Below, one piece after another: positions 19,298 through 54,336 of a stretch of 54,562 nucleotides of DNA. The position numbers and the translations under genes were made by a program. The DNA is from Neisseria sp. (GTDB taxonomy: Bacteria > Pseudomonadota > Gammaproteobacteria > Burkholderiales > Neisseriaceae): the NCBI RefSeq assembly GCF_030523955.1, contig NZ_JAUNHL010000016.1, positions 1-54,562 on the forward strand, given 5' to 3'. Every line of letters begins with the position of its first letter. Position 1 is the first letter of the stretch. The notes under the pieces were generated by a model. That model was given only the letters and a program-made list of their open reading frames with translations. It did not search any database and was not told where the DNA came from.

Positions 19298-19326
19298 TTG
19301 TTTTTTCCAAACGAAGCATTTATATT
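19298..19326 (+). promoter_or_regulatory. Candidate porin promoter
   Basis: TTGTTT, 17 bases, TATATT, placing the transcript start about 95 bases before the ATG. The -35 is weak; the -10 matches five of six. Confidence 0.4.
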
Positions 19327-19428
19327 AGCAGTCATGGAATCGCCGTTTAGGCGGTGAATTCGAAACTCAGGCAGTTTTGGATACTGTTTGAAGTTTGTTT
19401 TTCTTAACGATAGAAAAGGAATACAGCA

Positions 19429-20556
19429 ATGAAAAAAACTCTGATTGCTCTGTCTCTGGTTGCTTTGTCTGGCGCCGCTTCTGCCGAAGTGATTCTGTAC
19501 GGTCAAATCAAAGCCGGTGTTGAAGTAGCTAAAACCAAAATTAAAGGTTCTGATGACAATACACGTGAGCGTAGCCATACTGAAACTAAAATTGCCGACT
19601 TCGGTTCGCGTATCGGTTTCAAAGGTACCGAACACTTGGGTTCCGGCTTGAACGCCATTTGGCAGGTTGAGCAAGACACACCTCTTGGTGGTGATGGTCA
19701 ATGGGGTACCCGTGATTCTTTCATCGGTTTGGAAGGCGAGAGCTGGGGTAAAATCCGTGCCGGTAAATTGAGCACCCAGCTGAAAGATATGGATGCTATT
19801 GATCCGTGGGAATACAGTAACAATGCCTTGGGCTTGGGTATGTTCACACGTACCGGTGAGCGAGTTGTTTCCGCACGTTATGATTCTCCGGTATGGGGAG
19901 GTTTCTCTTTCAACGTACAAGCTGCTCCACGTGACAATGGTGCTACCGTACGCGGTATTTCTGGTCGTACTACTGGTCGTGATGATGTTGCCAGTGACAC
20001 TTCTTCTTACTACGGTGGTGTGAACTTTGAAAATGCTGGATTCTTTGCTCAATACGGTGTGGGTTATAAAAAATCTGCTTATATAACAGCTGATGACAAC
20101 AGTAAGTCTGGTCAAGCTCACCAAGTACAGGTTGGTTACGATGCCAACAACCTCTTTGTTGGCTTGGGATATCAATACACTAATGGTTGGGATAGCTACG
20201 ATAGCTACCGTAATGCTCTGTCAAGCTCCTCTTTGCTGAATGCTGACGGTGAGCCTTATGACCGTGCAACCGACCGTTCTGTTGGCTTGAAAGCCCACGA
20301 AGCTGCTGTAACTGGCGCTTACACTTTCGGTAACGTTACTCCGCGTATCTCTTATGCCCACGGTTTCAAAGCTAAAGGTGCTGGTTTAACTGAAGAAGAA
20401 CGCCGCGCTACTCAATACCACCAAGTTGTTTTGGGTGCTGACTACGACTTCTCCAAACGTACTACTGCTATGGTTTCTGCCGGCTGGTTGCGTGCTGGTA
20501 AAGACATTAAAACCGAAACTACTGCCGGTTTGGTTGGTCTGCGTCACAAATTCTAA
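19429..20556 (+). CDS. Neisserial outer-membrane porin
   Basis: 375 residues. Signal peptide MKKTLIALSLVALSGAASA, cleaved before EVILYGQIKAGVE, then a beta-barrel of the Gram-negative porin_4 (PorA/PorB) type: SRIGFKGTEHLGSGLNAIWQ, RDSFIGLEGESWGKIRAGK, AAVTGAYTFGNVTPRISYAHG and the C-terminal strand ending LRHKF with the terminal Phe recognised by the Bam machinery. It forms trimeric diffusion pores. Codon use is unlike its neighbours (T-ending codons such as ggt and gct, few GC-rich ones), typical of a very highly expressed gene. Start supported by AAAAGGAA 8 bases upstream. Hydrophilic segments such as KGSDDNTRERSHTE and SSYRNALSSSSLL-like stretches are likely surface loops. Confidence 0.95.
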   Translation: MKKTLIALSLVALSGAASAEVILYGQIKAGVEVAKTKIKGSDDNTRERSHTETKIADFGSRIGFKGTEHLGSGLNAIWQVEQDTPLGGDGQWGTRDSFIGLEGESWGKIRAGKLSTQLKDMDAIDPWEYSNNALGLGMFTRTGERVVSARYDSPVWGGFSFNVQAAPRDNGATVRGISGRTTGRDDVASDTSSYYGGVNFENAGFFAQYGVGYKKSAYITADDNSKSGQAHQVQVGYDANNLFVGLGYQYTNGWDSYDSYRNALSSSSLLNADGEPYDRATDRSVGLKAHEAAVTGAYTFGNVTPRISYAHGFKAKGAGLTEEERRATQYHQVVLGADYDFSKRTTAMVSAGWLRAGKDIKTETTAGLVGLRHKF

Positions 20557-47773: not shown

Positions 47774-49306
47774 TTATTTCATCATATTTTTAATCACGCC
47801 CATAATGCTGCGCGAAATCGCATTGGTGACTTGGCGGTTGATTTGGCTGCCCACCGAATCGGCCAAATCATAAGCCATGCCTTGGTTGGACTTTTTACGC
47901 CCGCCGAACAAACCGCCCAGAAGCCCGCCGACGATGCCGTCTTTTCCGGCAGCCTCTTTGGGCGCCGCTTCTTTGGCGGCAGGCCGGCTTTCTTCGGTTT
48001 TCGCATCATCCGGAGCAGTTTTGCCGGCCGCCAATTCCTGCAAAGCCTCGTAGGCGGAATAATTGTCGATCATGTCTTTATAGCCGGCATACAGCGGGTC
48101 TTTTTGGAACAAGGCATTGCGCTCTTCCGCCGCCAGCGGGCTCAACTGCGACTGCGGCGGCATGATGTTGGCACGCTGCACCGTGCCCGGCATCCCTTTT
48201 TCGTCCAAAAAAGACACCAAAGCTTCGCCCACGCCCAGCTCGGTAATCACCTCGGCTACTTTCAAATCAGGATTGCTGCGGAAAGTATCGGCGGCGGAGC
48301 GTACGGCTTTTTGGTCGCGCGGAGTAAAGGCACGCAGAGCGTGCTGAACACGGTTGCCGAGCTGCCCCAAAATGGTGTCGGGCAAATCGAGCGGATTTTG
48401 GGTAACGAAATACACGCCTACGCCTTTGGAACGGATGAGGCGCACCACCTGCTCCACCTGCTCCACCAACGCGGGCGCCGCGTTGTCGAACATCAGATGC
48501 GCTTCGTCGAAAAACATCACGAATTTGGGTTTGTCCAAATCGCCCACTTCCGGCAGCATTTCAAACAATTCGGCCAAAAACCACAACAAAAACGCGCTGT
48601 ACATACGCGGGCTGCGCATCAGCTTTTCAGAATTCAGGATATTGACCACGCCTTTGCCGTTTTCGGCCTGCATCCAGTCCTGCAGCTTCAGCGCGGGTTC
48701 GCCGAAAAAATGTTCGGCGCCTTCTCCCTCCAGCGTCAGCAGCTGGCGCTGAATGGCACCCACGCTGGTGGAAGACACATTGCCGTATTCTGCGCGGTAC
48801 TCTTTGGCATTGTCGGACACATGTTGCAGCATGCCGCGCAAATCTTTCAAATCAATCAGATGCCAGCCGTTGTCGTCGGCCACTTTGAACACCAGGTTCA
48901 GCAGCCCCTCCTGCGTTTCGTTCAGATTCATCAAACGGGCCAGCAGCATCGGGCCCATTTCCGAAACGGTAACGCGCACCGGAATACCGGTTTCTCCGTA
49001 CACATCCCAAAAGCGCACCGGAAACCCGCTCAAATAAGCATCGCCCAAAGCATATTCTGCGATGCGCTCGCCGATTTTACCGCTGCCGTCGCCGGCCTTG
49101 CCGATGCCGGACAAATCGCCTTTTACATCGGCCAGAAAAACAGGTATGCCCTGATTGCTGAACAATTCTGCCATTTTTCTCAGGGTCACGGTTTTGCCGG
49201 TACCGGTGGCGCCGGCAATCAGACCGTGGCGGTTGGCCATTTTGCCGATAATGTCTATCGGCTGTTTGTCGTTAACGGAAAATGCGACGGTAAACGGAGT
49301 GGTCAT
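47774..49306 (-). CDS. HerA-like ATPase (DUF853 family)
   Basis: 510 residues. Begins MTTPFTVAFSVNDKQPIDI; Walker A is GATGTGKTVTL (residues about 33-43), followed by ADVKGDLSGIG. Walker B is VMFFDEAHLMFD, then the arginine/sensor region GVGVYFVTQNPLDLPDTIL and LRAFTPRDQKAV. The C terminus is a Lys/Ala linker (TAPDDAKTEESRPAAKEAAPK) and a glycine-rich GLLGGLFGGRKK. The DUF853 group resembles HerA/FtsK translocases; its cellular role is not settled. Complete. Confidence 0.88.
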   Translation of the reverse strand: MTTPFTVAFSVNDKQPIDIIGKMANRHGLIAGATGTGKTVTLRKMAELFSNQGIPVFLADVKGDLSGIGKAGDGSGKIGERIAEYALGDAYLSGFPVRFWDVYGETGIPVRVTVSEMGPMLLARLMNLNETQEGLLNLVFKVADDNGWHLIDLKDLRGMLQHVSDNAKEYRAEYGNVSSTSVGAIQRQLLTLEGEGAEHFFGEPALKLQDWMQAENGKGVVNILNSEKLMRSPRMYSAFLLWFLAELFEMLPEVGDLDKPKFVMFFDEAHLMFDNAAPALVEQVEQVVRLIRSKGVGVYFVTQNPLDLPDTILGQLGNRVQHALRAFTPRDQKAVRSAADTFRSNPDLKVAEVITELGVGEALVSFLDEKGMPGTVQRANIMPPQSQLSPLAAEERNALFQKDPLYAGYKDMIDNYSAYEALQELAAGKTAPDDAKTEESRPAAKEAAPKEAAGKDGIVGGLLGGLFGGRKKSNQGMAYDLADSVGSQINRQVTNAISRSIMGVIKNMMK

Positions 49307-49464
49307 AATTTGAAATCCTCGGAAACAAAAGGCGATGGAAGATGCCGCATTTTAGCCGATATACATACCTCGGTTTGCAAAGATATGTTCAGACAGGCAT
49401 TTTCTAGTAAGCAAAGAGGAGCATGCCGAAGAACTCCCTCAAACAGACATGCCGTTTTTATCCA

Positions 49465-49495
49465 TGCCTGTCTGAAATTTTATTTCAGACAGGCA
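49465..49495. terminator. DUS inverted pair
   Basis: TGCCTGTCTGAA, 7 bases, TTCAGACAGGCA with flanking complementary bases; lies between the small RNA candidate and the HerA-like gene. Confidence 0.6.
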
Positions 49496-49512
49496 TTTGC
49501 CATAAAGCAAAT

Positions 49513-49607
49513 AAAAAAATGCACACATTCTTTTAGGAATGTGTGCCAAGTCTACAAAGGAGAAATAGAGGAGAAACTGCCGGAAAAGCGATATAACTTC
49601 TCCGACG
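49513..49607 (-). ncRNA. Candidate trans-acting small RNA with two anti-Shine-Dalgarno stretches
   Basis: About 95 nt. It starts near 49607 from the promoter at 49614-49642. The 5' part folds as CGGAGAAG / CTTTTCCG (8 bp, one G-U) around a TTATATCG loop. A single-stranded pyrimidine-rich stretch follows with TTTCTCCTC and TTTCTCCTTTG, both complementary to ribosome-binding sites. It ends in a perfect 10-bp hairpin, GCACACATTC-CTAAAA-GAATGTGTGC, then A and seven T. This layout (5' stem, anti-SD seeds, terminator with U tail) is that of Hfq-dependent sRNAs and recalls the neisserial sibling sRNAs NmsR/RcoF that repress metabolic genes by seeds of this kind. That homology is from memory and unproven. 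Only one copy is seen here. Confidence 0.6.
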
Positions 49608-49613
49608 GTTGTT

Positions 49614-49642
49614 ATTTTCTACCATTTTTTGCCTTGCGTCAA
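49614..49642 (-). promoter_or_regulatory. Promoter of the small RNA candidate
   Basis: TTGACG (-35), exactly 17 bases, GAAAAT (-10). The -35 matches five of six positions, the -10 four of six. Confidence 0.6.
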
Positions 49643-49727
49643 TGTTGTTTTGTTTCAATTTAAAAATACGGCGGATTTTGTTCCGCGCTTGCAACATTTT
49701 TCAGACAGGCATTGCCCGAATCCGCTT

Positions 49728-51068
49728 TCAAAGCTGCAATTTCCTGGCTAAAGCGGCCGCAGCGTCCGCACGCTCGCGCCGGCTGCCTTCCGTCTGCCCG
49801 GTATTCAAAGAAGACCATTTGGGCTGGTTTCTCGCTTTGCCCAGTTCGCCGGGCAGACGCGAGGGCTGCCACGGAGTTTGCCCGCTGATAAGCCGGATTT
49901 GGCTTTGCGCCGCATGTCCGCGCTTTTGCAGCGCAAAGAGCAAATCCAATGCGCGGGCGGCCAAAAGAGTGAGGCTTTCCGGATCGATATACAGCGTTTG
50001 CCTGCCGCTCAGTTTGTCGGAAATATCCTGCATATTCGGCAATACGCCGCCCAAAATGCCGCCGATGGCGGTGCCCAGGCCCAGCGAGCCGCCCAGTGTC
50101 ACCATATCTACGCCAAGTCCGATTAAAGCGCCGGTGGCGGCACCGGTGCCGGTGCGGATGCCGTAGGTTTTGAGCAGGTCGGCATCGAACGGGTCTTGCC
50201 GGAATTCCTGCAAAACCCATTCTCCGCTGTCGATTTCGTCATGGTAAAAGCGGTAGTTTTGAAACAATTGCTGCTGAAACGTGCGTTCGAGCTGGCGTAC
50301 GGCGGCCTGCATTTTGGCCAGAACATGCTCGGGCGGGTCGTTTTCGTCGATCTCCTGTTTGTAGGCGGCCACATCGAGCAGGAAATGGGCGATGTCGCGG
50401 CGGGAATCGGCATCAAGCCTGGCCCACTCGCGCCGGCGCATGTCCGCCAGATTGTCCAGCATGCCGCGATCGGGCAGCATGGTGGCCAGATTATCCCACA
50501 GGCGCAACTCGCCTTCGAAATCGAAGGCAACGGTGTCGAAGCCGCTGTATACATGCAGGCCGCGGCGCGCCAGCATGGTGGTCCATTCGGTCAAATCGCG
50601 CCCGTCGGTGAAGTTGAACACCGGCATTACCGGCTTGGCACACCATGAAAGTACGGTCAGCTCGTCTTTATATTTGTTCAGCACCGGCTCGCGCGCATCG
50701 ATGACATACAGCGCCATATCGCTTTGCAGCAGCTGGCGCAGCACTTTGGCTTCTTGGTTGAAATCGCCGGCGGCTTCGGCGCTGTCGAGAAACTGCTGCA
50801 GCCTCTCTATACCGTCGCTGCGTGGGGACGTATGGTTTTCCAGCCAATCCAGCACGCCGCCGGCATCTTCCAAACCGGGCGTATCATAAAGGCGCACCAG
50901 AGTCTGCGCGCCGTTGCTGATGAGCGCTTCTTCCACATGGCGCGTGGTGGAGGGTGCGTTTTTCACTTCGCCGAACCGGCTGTCGCGCAACAAAGTGCGC
51001 AAAAGCGAGGTTTTGCCGGTATTGGTGTGGCCGACCACGGCCAATGATAAAGGGATTTCGGTTGTCAT
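49728..51068 (-). CDS. GTPase with DUF3482 domain
   Basis: 446 residues. N-terminal Ras-like GTPase: G1 loop GHTNTGKTSLLRTL, G3 DTPGLED. G4 reads NFTDGRD in the position where NKxD is expected, so guanine specificity is uncertain. The C-terminal half is the DUF3482 region (ERTFQQQLFQNYRFYHDEID; a glycine-rich GTGAATGALIGLGVDMVTLGGSLGLG that could insert in a membrane). It lies 40 bp after the DUF2868 gene on the same strand; these two families are regularly adjacent, so they probably work together at the inner membrane. Function unknown. Confidence 0.85.
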   Translation of the reverse strand: MTTEIPLSLAVVGHTNTGKTSLLRTLLRDSRFGEVKNAPSTTRHVEEALISNGAQTLVRLYDTPGLEDAGGVLDWLENHTSPRSDGIERLQQFLDSAEAAGDFNQEAKVLRQLLQSDMALYVIDAREPVLNKYKDELTVLSWCAKPVMPVFNFTDGRDLTEWTTMLARRGLHVYSGFDTVAFDFEGELRLWDNLATMLPDRGMLDNLADMRRREWARLDADSRRDIAHFLLDVAAYKQEIDENDPPEHVLAKMQAAVRQLERTFQQQLFQNYRFYHDEIDSGEWVLQEFRQDPFDADLLKTYGIRTGTGAATGALIGLGVDMVTLGGSLGLGTAIGGILGGVLPNMQDISDKLSGRQTLYIDPESLTLLAARALDLLFALQKRGHAAQSQIRLISGQTPWQPSRLPGELGKARNQPKWSSLNTGQTEGSRRERADAAAALARKLQL

Positions 51069-52569: not shown

Positions 52570-54336
52570 TCACACATCCGTCCTGTCCACCAATCCGGCC
52601 TCCGTTTTCTCCGGCCTAAAGCGCACAGATTGCGGATAAGGATAAAAATCATCCATCAGACCCTGCATCAGCCGCTCTTTTTTGCCCTGCCAGAATTCGG
52701 GCGTGAGCAATTCCTTATGGTGCTGCAAAAATACCTGCCGCACATCCGGCTCGCCAAGCAGAAACGGCCCGAACTCTTCGGGAAACACATCGCCTTTGTG
52801 CACCGGATACCACACTTCGCCCGACATTTCCATTTCGGGATTCGGTGCCGGCGGGATTTTGCGGAAGTTGCAGTCGGTCATGTATTCGATTTCGTCGTAG
52901 TCGTAGAAAATCACGCGGCCGAAACGGGTCATGCCGAAGTTTTTATACAGCATGTCGCCCGGAAAAATATTGGCGCTGGCCAGCTCTTTCAGCGCGAAAC
53001 CGTAATCGATGACCGCGGCGGCCTTTTCCGCCGGCAAAGCTTTTTGCATAAAGAGGTTGAGCGGTTTTAAACGGTATTCGATGTAAACGTGTTTGATGAC
53101 CACCCTGTCTTCCGTTTCCTCAATCTGGCTGGGCGCCAACGTGCGCATTTCCTCCAAAAACGCCCCGTCGCAACGCGACTTGGGCAGCGGCACATCGGAA
53201 AATTCCAGCGTATCCGCCATCCGCCCGACGCGGTCGTGCTTTTTCACCAACAGGTATTTTTGGCGCACATATTCCCGGTCGAAATCCTTGTTCGGCCCGA
53301 AGGTATCTTTAATCACCTTGAACACATAGGGAAACGAAGGCAGCGTAAACACGCTCATCACCAAGCCTTTCACGCCCGGCGCCAAAATGAATTTATCCTG
53401 CGAATTGCTAAGGTGTTGGGTGAACTCGCGCCAGAAGATGTTTTTACCCTGTTTGTGCAGGCCCAAAAGCGTGTAAAAATCGCCGTCGGAGCGCATCGGC
53501 AGCATTTCGCGCAAAAAGCGCACATAAGCGCTGGGCACAGGCATATCCACCAGAAAATATGCCCGCGCAAACGAAAACAGTACCGAAATCTGCTTCGGAT
53601 CGAACAGCGCCGCATCAATCTGCAGGCGGCCGGCGGCATTGTGGGTCACGGCCAGCGCAAACGGATATTTGCTGCTGCCGTTGACCATCATCCCCAAAAC
53701 ATAAGCCGATTTGTTGCGGTAAAACGCCGAGCTCAACACCTGTATATGCAGGTTCAATTCCTTAGGCGGCCATTCTTCTTTCAGATAATGCTTCGCCGCA
53801 CGCAGGATGCCGCCGATGTCTTCCCGCACGTTTTCAAACGGCACCGCCCAGCCGAAATAATGCAAAATCTTGCGCAAGCAGCCGCGCAACCCCTGCGTGT
53901 CGGGATAAAACGATTGGAAAATCGGCTCGTCCGAATCAATAAATTCGGTACTGGTGGCGGGCTTCACGAAAATAAACTGGTTATCGAAATACTCCTTGGC
54001 CAAAAGCTTGGTCGATACCGAATTGAAAAACGTTTCCGCCAATTCCGGCTGCTTGTGGTCTATCAGCAAGGCTATGTATTCCTTCTTCGCTGCCGCCCAT
54101 ACCTCGTCCGGCAGGCAGCCTGCATCCCATTTTTCTCGCAACACCGCCACTGCTTCCGCCACACGCTCGTCATACATTTGGATGCGCAAAGCCACCAGCT
54201 CCTGAATCCCCTTCCAATCCGCAGCCTCAAACAAAGCCTTCGCCTGTGCCGAGACGGCCCGGTAGAGCATGTAGTGGCGGTTGAACCCCGCCAGCATGGT
54301 TTCGGCCACGGCTTTGGCCGTTTCGTGTACGTTCAT
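52570..54336 (-). CDS. aceK: Isocitrate dehydrogenase kinase/phosphatase
   Basis: 588 residues. AceK phosphorylates isocitrate dehydrogenase to push carbon into the glyoxylate bypass, and removes the phosphate again, using one active site. Seen: the N-terminal regulatory helical domain (MNVHETAKAVAETMLAGFNR), the ATP-loop region APGVKGLVMSVFTLPSFPYVFKVIKD with the invariant Lys, the AceK-type insert DREYVRQKYLLVKKHDRVGRMADTLEF, and the metal/catalytic stretch VIDYGFALKELASANIFPGDML, FYDYDEIEY. GAAGGAAG lies 6 bases before the ATG. No aceA or aceB is in the window, so it is not in the enteric aceBAK arrangement. Confidence 0.95.
   Translation of the reverse strand: MNVHETAKAVAETMLAGFNRHYMLYRAVSAQAKALFEAADWKGIQELVALRIQMYDERVAEAVAVLREKWDAGCLPDEVWAAAKKEYIALLIDHKQPELAETFFNSVSTKLLAKEYFDNQFIFVKPATSTEFIDSDEPIFQSFYPDTQGLRGCLRKILHYFGWAVPFENVREDIGGILRAAKHYLKEEWPPKELNLHIQVLSSAFYRNKSAYVLGMMVNGSSKYPFALAVTHNAAGRLQIDAALFDPKQISVLFSFARAYFLVDMPVPSAYVRFLREMLPMRSDGDFYTLLGLHKQGKNIFWREFTQHLSNSQDKFILAPGVKGLVMSVFTLPSFPYVFKVIKDTFGPNKDFDREYVRQKYLLVKKHDRVGRMADTLEFSDVPLPKSRCDGAFLEEMRTLAPSQIEETEDRVVIKHVYIEYRLKPLNLFMQKALPAEKAAAVIDYGFALKELASANIFPGDMLYKNFGMTRFGRVIFYDYDEIEYMTDCNFRKIPPAPNPEMEMSGEVWYPVHKGDVFPEEFGPFLLGEPDVRQVFLQHHKELLTPEFWQGKKERLMQGLMDDFYPYPQSVRFRPEKTEAGLVDRTDV

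Follow-up and report, generated by a model that had tools for sequence, protein, structure and literature searches.

An NmsR/RcoF-family small RNA gene between DUF3482 and HerA-like genes in a Neisseria sp. assembly, and its likely kinship with the RF02278 RNAs

The DNA analysed here (the window) is a stretch of 54,562 nt from a Neisseria sp. assembly, and the locus under study lies on its minus strand between a GTPase gene with a DUF3482 domain and a HerA-like ATPase gene. Further upstream, aceK (isocitrate dehydrogenase kinase/phosphatase; PF06315, PF20423) is found at 52570-54336 on the minus strand, upstream of DUF2868 and DUF3482. Read along the minus strand, positions 49513-49642 hold, in this order, TTGACG, 17 nt, GAAAAT, GTCGGAGAAGTTATATCGCTTTTCCGGC, AG, TTTCTCCTCTATTTCTCCTTTGTAGACTTG, GCACACATTCCTAAAAGAATGTGTGC, A and T7. 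The features of the locus, with the support for each in brackets, are:

49728..51068, minus strand: upstream neighbour, GTPase with a DUF3482 domain, 446 aa (PF11981, E 1.6e-77)
49671..49686, minus strand: short terminator-like hairpin, downstream of the DUF3482 gene and ahead of the sRNA promoter (terminator scan; weak)
49637..49642, minus strand: -35 hexamer TTGACG (promoter scan; same position in relatives)
49614..49619, minus strand: -10 hexamer GAAAAT after a 17-nt spacer (promoter scan; relatives have CATAAT, GATAAT or CAAAAT there)
49513..49608, minus strand: NmsR-type sRNA of about 95 nt (match to RF02877 at 49608-49515; match to R1, a covariance model built on 61 exact-core sequences, at 49614-49512)
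49579..49606, minus strand: stem-loop 1 (SL1), 11 pairs (fold and terminator scan)
49569..49576, minus strand: anti-Shine-Dalgarno (anti-SD) seed 1, TTTCTCCT, in single-stranded region 1 (sequence)
49551..49569, minus strand: stem-loop 2 (SL2), 5 pairs with a 9-nt CU-rich loop (fold)
49558..49565, minus strand: anti-SD seed 2, TTTCTCCT, mostly in the loop of SL2 (sequence)
49521..49546, minus strand: terminator stem-loop 3 (SL3), 10 pairs with a loop of 6 (fold and terminator scan)
49513..49519, minus strand: U7 tail of the terminator, after one A (sequence)
47774..49306, minus strand: downstream neighbour, HerA-like ATPase, 510 aa (PF05872, E 4.3e-219)

The TTGACG-N17-GAAAAT promoter named in a preliminary description of this DNA is present on the minus strand, where a scan of 501 bp for sigma70-like promoters scored it at 9 of the 12 consensus positions; since 0.9 sites with 9/12 are expected by chance in the scanned region, the window promoter is weak evidence by itself. 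Its position is kept among the relatives: of 135 distinct copies, counting that of the window, 119 have a promoter of at least 9/12 in the same 60-nt stretch, while random 60-nt stretches of the genome-collection loci reach this in 52 of 2000 cases. Judging by the -10 box and by where the Rfam match begins, the 5' end would lie at about 49608. The weak hairpin at 49671-49686 could possibly insulate the sRNA from the DUF3482 gene. In the gap that separates the sRNA from the HerA-like gene, an inverted uptake-word pair (TGCCTGTCTGAA and TTCAGACAGGCA) is found at 49465-49495, and it is possible that this pair acts as a second terminator. A 610-aa plus-strand ORF runs over the sRNA region (47831-49663), antisense to the HerA-like gene, and was taken as spurious. 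Elsewhere in the window, 19317-19375 (plus strand) matches the Rfam porB RNA RF03042 at 43.6 bits, and the ORF directly downstream of that match (19429-20556) looks porin-like by eye.

The predicted fold of the 97-nt sequence reaches -33.1 kcal/mol (z -5.9, with 0 of 200 shuffles equally stable), and both the MFE and the centroid structure contain three stem-loops of 11, 5 and 10 pairs, with the first anti-SD seed between SL1 and SL2. The 5' stem, put at 8 bp in the preliminary description, is longer at 11 pairs; the 10-bp terminator hairpin followed by seven T was borne out in full, with 10 pairs, a loop of 6, one A and T7. As for the two seeds said to lie in an unpaired stretch, TTTCTCCT does occur twice and seed 1 is single-stranded, but seed 2 sits in a hairpin loop. 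The probability of being unpaired is 0.82-0.99 at the inner six bases of seed 1 (0.63 and 0.2 at its ends) and 0.97-0.99 at the last seven bases of seed 2. The terminator scan recovers the first and last hairpins of the sRNA.

A search with Rfam covariance models, which had been proposed as a check, assigned the sRNA to RF02877 (NmsRb/RcoF1/NgncR163) with 82.7 bits over the full model (positions 1-91 of 91; E 1.5e-11), well over the gathering score of 52 bits, and this match supports the earlier comparison with the NmsR/RcoF siblings as one of family membership; that the RNA is also of the Hfq type would follow by analogy. The model R1 scores the window copy at 94.7 bits, the window being one of the sequences from which R1 was built. 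The bases 49576-49515 also match RF02278 (Betaproteobacteria toxic small RNA), at a score of 31.7 bits that is under its cut-off of 50, and RF02876 (AS-pc02) yielded no match above its cut-off. The window copy resembles NmsRb and its sibling NmsRA (NgncR_162) in its three stem-loops, in both anti-SD motifs and in its terminator, whereas it differs from them in the sequence of SL1, in having no tandem partner and in being flanked by DUF3482 and HerA-like genes rather than by dsbB and lrp. The meningococcal site lies at dsbB-lrp (PMC5362039), with nmsRA and nmsRB in tandem between the two genes; at the window there is a single copy. This tandem dsbB-lrp arrangement does not define the family, because 7 of 34 genus genomes have a single copy and 21 a tandem pair. 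Multi-copy sibling sRNAs are likewise reported for LhrC (Listeria) and AbcR (Sinorhizobium) (PMC9973317), which we mention as an analogy only.

Copies above the RF02877 cut-off were found in 34 of 36 genus genomes (that of the window included) and in none of 24 genomes of other families, two of which have matches of about 41 bits. Among 14 control genomes none matches RF02877 at E 0.01; at the loose limit of E 10 seven do, none over the cut-off. Two copies are carried by 26 of the 34 genomes (in tandem in 21), one copy by seven, and three by the window's assembly. The 32-nt core TTTCTCCTCTATTTCTCCTTTGTAGACTTGGC is kept exactly in 59 of the 61 genus copies that could be read (out of 62 found with the Rfam model), the other two being one base off each. 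In 14 of the 34 genomes, DUF3482 is followed on its own strand by a copy at a distance of at most 700 bp, so the window site is one of the usual sites of the genus; 22 of 34 have a copy within 5 kb of DUF3482 in any arrangement and 12 of 34 have none so near on the same contig, a gene on a different contig of a draft genome being scored as far. Both cautions of the preliminary description were thus well placed: only one copy is visible at the site, with none in tandem beside it and two more elsewhere in the assembly, and the neighbourhood does differ from that in the meningococcus, though the DUF3482 site is common in the genus. The sRNA gene is, in short, an ordinary member of the known NmsR/RcoF family at a usual genus site.

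Upstream of the window copy lies the block TTGAAACAAAACAACATTGAC. Four loci from the N. wadsworthii group have this block, unchanged or with one base changed, before their first tandem copy; they belong to Neisseria sp. 83E34 (L105), N. wadsworthii (L151), G005 (L057) and the MAG S18M_Sa_17 (L144). In our view the window copy corresponds to the leading member of such a tandem pair, the second having presumably been lost or moved. In N. wadsworthii, one NmsR copy (L024 1258-1357, plus strand, the same as L151 near 6523) carries three tandem anti-SD seeds (TTTCTCCTCTATTTCTCCTCTATTTCTCCT) in place of two, the third being one extra 11-base unit. More than two siblings per genome do occur, as two uncultured Neisseriaceae MAGs each carry three NmsR copies with the exact core on a single contig (L110 at 5000, 5454 and 5892; L103 and L172, which are parts of one contig).

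Conservation of the structure was assessed on an alignment of 61 sequences of less than 90% identity to one another, drawn from 206 exact-core stretches (123 distinct). In this alignment the share of paired cells is 96.4% (84.1% in shuffles), both partners have changed in 15 of 24 pairs (10.8 in shuffles), and the covariation score is 0.494, against 0.236 in shuffles and 0.06-0.13 for slid structures (in each of the three comparisons, 0 of 500 shuffles were as high). The signal comes from SL1, where all 10 modelled pairs vary among relatives and nine do so on both sides, and from the terminator SL3, with changes on both sides in six of nine modelled pairs. SL2 is uninformative in this respect, since it is invariant in sequences that were chosen by their exact core.

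The three copies of the assembly lie on the contigs C72 (95.7 bits with RF02877), C98 (87.7) and C36, the window contig (82.7). A fourth match (C26:3152-3248, 24.5 bits) is to DNA without the core and was taken as chance. C72 also carries DUF3482 and DUF2868 regions with 75% and 73% DNA identity to those of the window. The regions of rsmE, yebC and suhB on C35 are repeated on the window contig at 66-84% DNA identity (rsmE being present in two copies), and much of 26.5-43.2 kb of the window is repeated on C44 and C23, collinear on each, at 69-79% identity. HisG on C72 is single. There are two copies of DUF3482 in this assembly and one in 44 of 45 other genus genomes; the gene was not found in the remaining one, a genome of 81% completeness. 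Set against 29 other genomes of the genus, the DUF3482 protein encoded on C72 shares 95% identity with its counterparts in N. dentiae (G035) and G021, and the window protein shares 83-85% with its best matches.

Because genes of the window contig have second versions on other contigs at 66-84% identity, the three siblings are most likely the product of a mixed assembly. A true gene amplification is the less likely reading of the third sibling, for normally single genes are duplicated across contigs at this identity. The assembly probably consists of contigs of two Neisseria species that share one DNA uptake word; its stated contamination is 3.8%. The words concerned are TGCCTGTCTGAA and GCCGTCTGAA, both of which we take to be DNA uptake words. 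They do not split the assembly by species, as TGCCTGTCTGAA occurs in all 10 readable stretches counted on other contigs and is the commoner word in nine of them, L095 being the exception (2 against 3 of GCCGTCTGAA). Loci of the N. wadsworthii group use TGCCTGTCTGAA, and loci of N. dentiae, N. weixii and others use GCCGTCTGAA. Loci of G035 and G021 bear a different uptake word from the assembly despite their DUF3482 protein being 95% identical to that of C72 (L034 8247-9581), a likeness that looks like interspecies exchange.

We hold with high confidence that the locus is an independent sRNA gene, that it belongs to the NmsR/RcoF/NgncR_162-163 type and has its own promoter and terminator, and that its product would block the translation of metabolic mRNAs with the assistance of Hfq. 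The hairpin and U-run could instead terminate the DUF3482 mRNA and make up its 3' end, in which case there would be no independent gene but perhaps a processed 3'-UTR sRNA. The element is on the same strand as DUF3482 and 123 bp downstream of the DUF3482 match, its promoter taken by itself is at about chance level for 501 bp, and Bordetella S17, which is related to RF02278, is reported to be a processed RNA (PMC11722255). We nevertheless consider this reading improbable, for the promoter is kept in 119 of 135 copies though 12 of 34 genomes have no copy within 5 kb of DUF3482, a terminator-like hairpin (49671-49686) intervenes between the DUF3482 gene and the sRNA, and the meningococcal RNAs are reported to begin at their own TSS (PMC5362039).

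That the window copy is a decaying or left-over sibling without function strikes us as a shade less probable again. Its Rfam score is the lowest of the three in the assembly (82.7 vs 95.7 and 87.7), its -10 box GAAAAT is weak and its tandem partner is missing, but the core, the three stems and the terminator are all intact, the sequence of SL1 is far from that of its relatives and yet fully paired, as expected under selection on structure, and its R1 score of 94.7 bits is close to those of the other two copies (99.8 and 95.2). A switch by which the copy masks its own seeds, passing between a free and a masked form, would draw on the 5' arm of SL1, where GGAGAAG (49603-49597, minus strand) matches the complement of TTCTCC, so that the GGAGAA of the arm is complementary to the seeds. 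Forcing the arm to pair with the seeds, though, costs about 8-9 kcal/mol (-25.3 and -24.3 vs -33.1 kcal/mol), and the probability of such pairs is below 1e-5; we give this reading hardly any credence.

In the reading that we prefer, that of an independent NmsR/RcoF-type gene, the sigma70-like promoter would give rise to an RNA of about 95 nt ending at its own terminator, as its published relatives suggest. SL1 would protect the 5' end, and the core UUUCUCCUCUAUUUCUCCUUUGUAGACUUGGC would present two anti-SD seeds, the first as a free strand and the second within a hairpin loop. The U-rich stretch at the 3' end, the usual Hfq site, would be bound by Hfq if the RNA behaves as its relatives do, and with Hfq the RNA would pair with ribosome-binding sites rich in AAGGAGAAA, that of prpC (methylcitrate cycle) foremost. 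By analogy with the relatives, such pairing would stop ribosome entry and turn down catabolism of the propionate/TCA type. The three stem-loop type with these two anti-SD motifs is described in PMC5362039, where the published relatives repress prpB, prpC, sdhC, gltA, sucC and fumC via their seeds (6 of 8 reporters). The neisserial siblings are reported to bind Hfq and to depend on it for stability (PMC9973317), ProQ is reported not to shift RcoF1 (PMC7272453), and targets of the gonococcal siblings are given as amino-acid uptake and the citric acid and methylcitrate cycles (PMC9973317, PMC13104608).

The preliminary description had also proposed a search for seed targets among starts of TCA-cycle and amino acid genes; for the citrate synthase family the result was divided: prpC came out strongly and gltA of the same assembly did not. 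The seed region was paired with positions -40 to +20 of genes of the citrate synthase family (start codons set by a simple rule), and each was compared with 200 dinucleotide shuffles. The prpC start beat all 200 shuffles in seven of eight Neisseria genomes, that of the window included, with 11 of 200 shuffles as low in the eighth (G002); the prpC-like matches of G001 and G011, which have no locus, are left out of this count. In the window's assembly, the prpC start AAAAAGGAGAAAGAGCATG has a predicted pairing energy of -27.7 kcal/mol, lower than all 62 sampled gene starts of the assembly (mean -13.9; the next two -26.6 and -25.4). Beating the shuffles in seven of eight genomes and lying lowest among the sampled gene starts, prpC is the best-supported predicted target. 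The gltA start of this assembly is unsupported at -12.7 kcal/mol, with 127 of 200 shuffles as low, and is ordinary among the sampled gene starts (38 of 62 as low); across the genus, at most 10 of 200 shuffles were as low in 5 of 13 Neisseria genomes. Outside the genus, none of seven gltA-type genes stayed at or below 10 of 200 shuffles (the best had 11; the truncated locus L203 was excluded), and the single prpC-type gene examined gave 66 of 200. NCBIfam names one gene of the window's assembly and the gene of G009 2-methylcitrate synthase/citrate synthase (prpC) and the other gene of the assembly citrate synthase (gltA); the remaining prpC and gltA genes were named by score group and length. 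We would like to note that the prpC gene examined sits on C17 and that it and the window sRNA may belong to different species of the mixed assembly. Among the sampled genes of the window, the start of aceK pairs best with the seeds (-17.2 kcal/mol), which is unremarkable against the rest.

The range of the family seems wider than the name NmsR implies. A search of the genome collection for the exact 32-nt core gave 94 copies in 77 stretches, which outside Neisseria come from Snodgrassella, Conchiformibius, Alysiella and Stenoxybacter, as well as Chromobacterium, Aquitalea, Vogesella, Pseudogulbenkiania, Gulbenkiania, Crenobacter, Craterilacuibacter, Paludibacterium and others. The last-named group, from Chromobacterium onwards, which we take to be Chromobacteriaceae, has one exact copy in each stretch, and most of these copies come with a near-consensus promoter; any copy whose core has changed would escape an exact-core search. 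Run on 250 genomes of the order, which represent 120 genera, R1 gave matches at E 0.001 or better in 44 genomes and 27 genera, with scores from 101 down to 34 bits. Under stricter filters it matched none of 184 other genomes drawn from the class, the window's own being the only match of 185, and the weak R1 matches are therefore not merely any CU-rich hairpin.

An Rfam scan of 20 loci (16 of the 20 fetched from the order search and four core loci) returned 11 that pass RF02877, six that pass RF02278 and three (L223, L224 and L229) that pass neither, the last of which are possible intermediates between the two families. R1, an NmsR-only model, recovers the six RF02278 members at 43-50 bits. When 44 rows, one of them a 19-bit chance match, were fitted to R1 in a joint alignment, one of the five pairs of SL2 went from U-A to C-G in six rows, a change of both partners, one further pair varied on one side in one row, and the other three deviated by 2-3 unpaired rows. 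These pair changes lend modest support to a common family, and we regard it as likely, though not certain, that RF02877 and RF02278 belong together.

RF02278, which comprises the Burkholderia bdhR RNAs and to which Bordetella S17 is related, resembles the window copy in its pair of CU-rich anti-RBS stretches (the later one in a hairpin loop that ends in UUUG), in the strong terminator behind them, and in its sub-threshold match to the same window bases. It differs in that the window copy falls under its cut-off, that its seeds are of the CUCCUCC kind rather than UUUCUCC, and that its SL2 stem is longer. Its targets differ as well, in that the Burkholderia RNAs are reported to have shown no complementarity to TCA-cycle genes (PMC5688073); the same source calls these double-hairpin RNAs structurally similar to the NmsRs. 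PMC11722255 links Bordetella S17 with RF02278 as well as with 27 nt that are conserved across Betaproteobacteria, and its main text mentions neither Neisseria nor NmsR. In the open-licence literature, we found no paper joining an anti-SD sRNA with Chromobacterium, or bdhR1 with Neisseria; a common NmsR/RF02278 family may already be stated elsewhere in the literature.

Effects in E. coli have been reported from all three sides. There, nmsRB could not be introduced and nmsRA slowed growth (PMC5362039), and RF02278 was named toxic for a similar effect (PMC5688073). S17 left exponential growth of E. coli BL21 unimpaired (PMC11722255), which disfavours toxicity as a common mark. We see about even chances that NmsR and the RF02278 double-hairpin/S17 sRNAs are the ends of one old family of double anti-SD RNAs extending across the order that contains both Neisseria and Burkholderia, in which the core would stay constant while copy number, site, SL1 and terminator turn over, and in which the harm to E. 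coli would come from a shared, broad block of start sites, with S17 the milder case.

For annotation, the finding places an sRNA gene of this family away from the dsbB-lrp site described for the meningococcus, with the caution that the assembly is probably mixed. A 32-nt core that stays unchanged across many genera suggests many mRNA partners at once, and if the NmsR and the Burkholderia and Bordetella RNAs are indeed joined, results on targets and signals would become transferable between organisms that have been studied separately.
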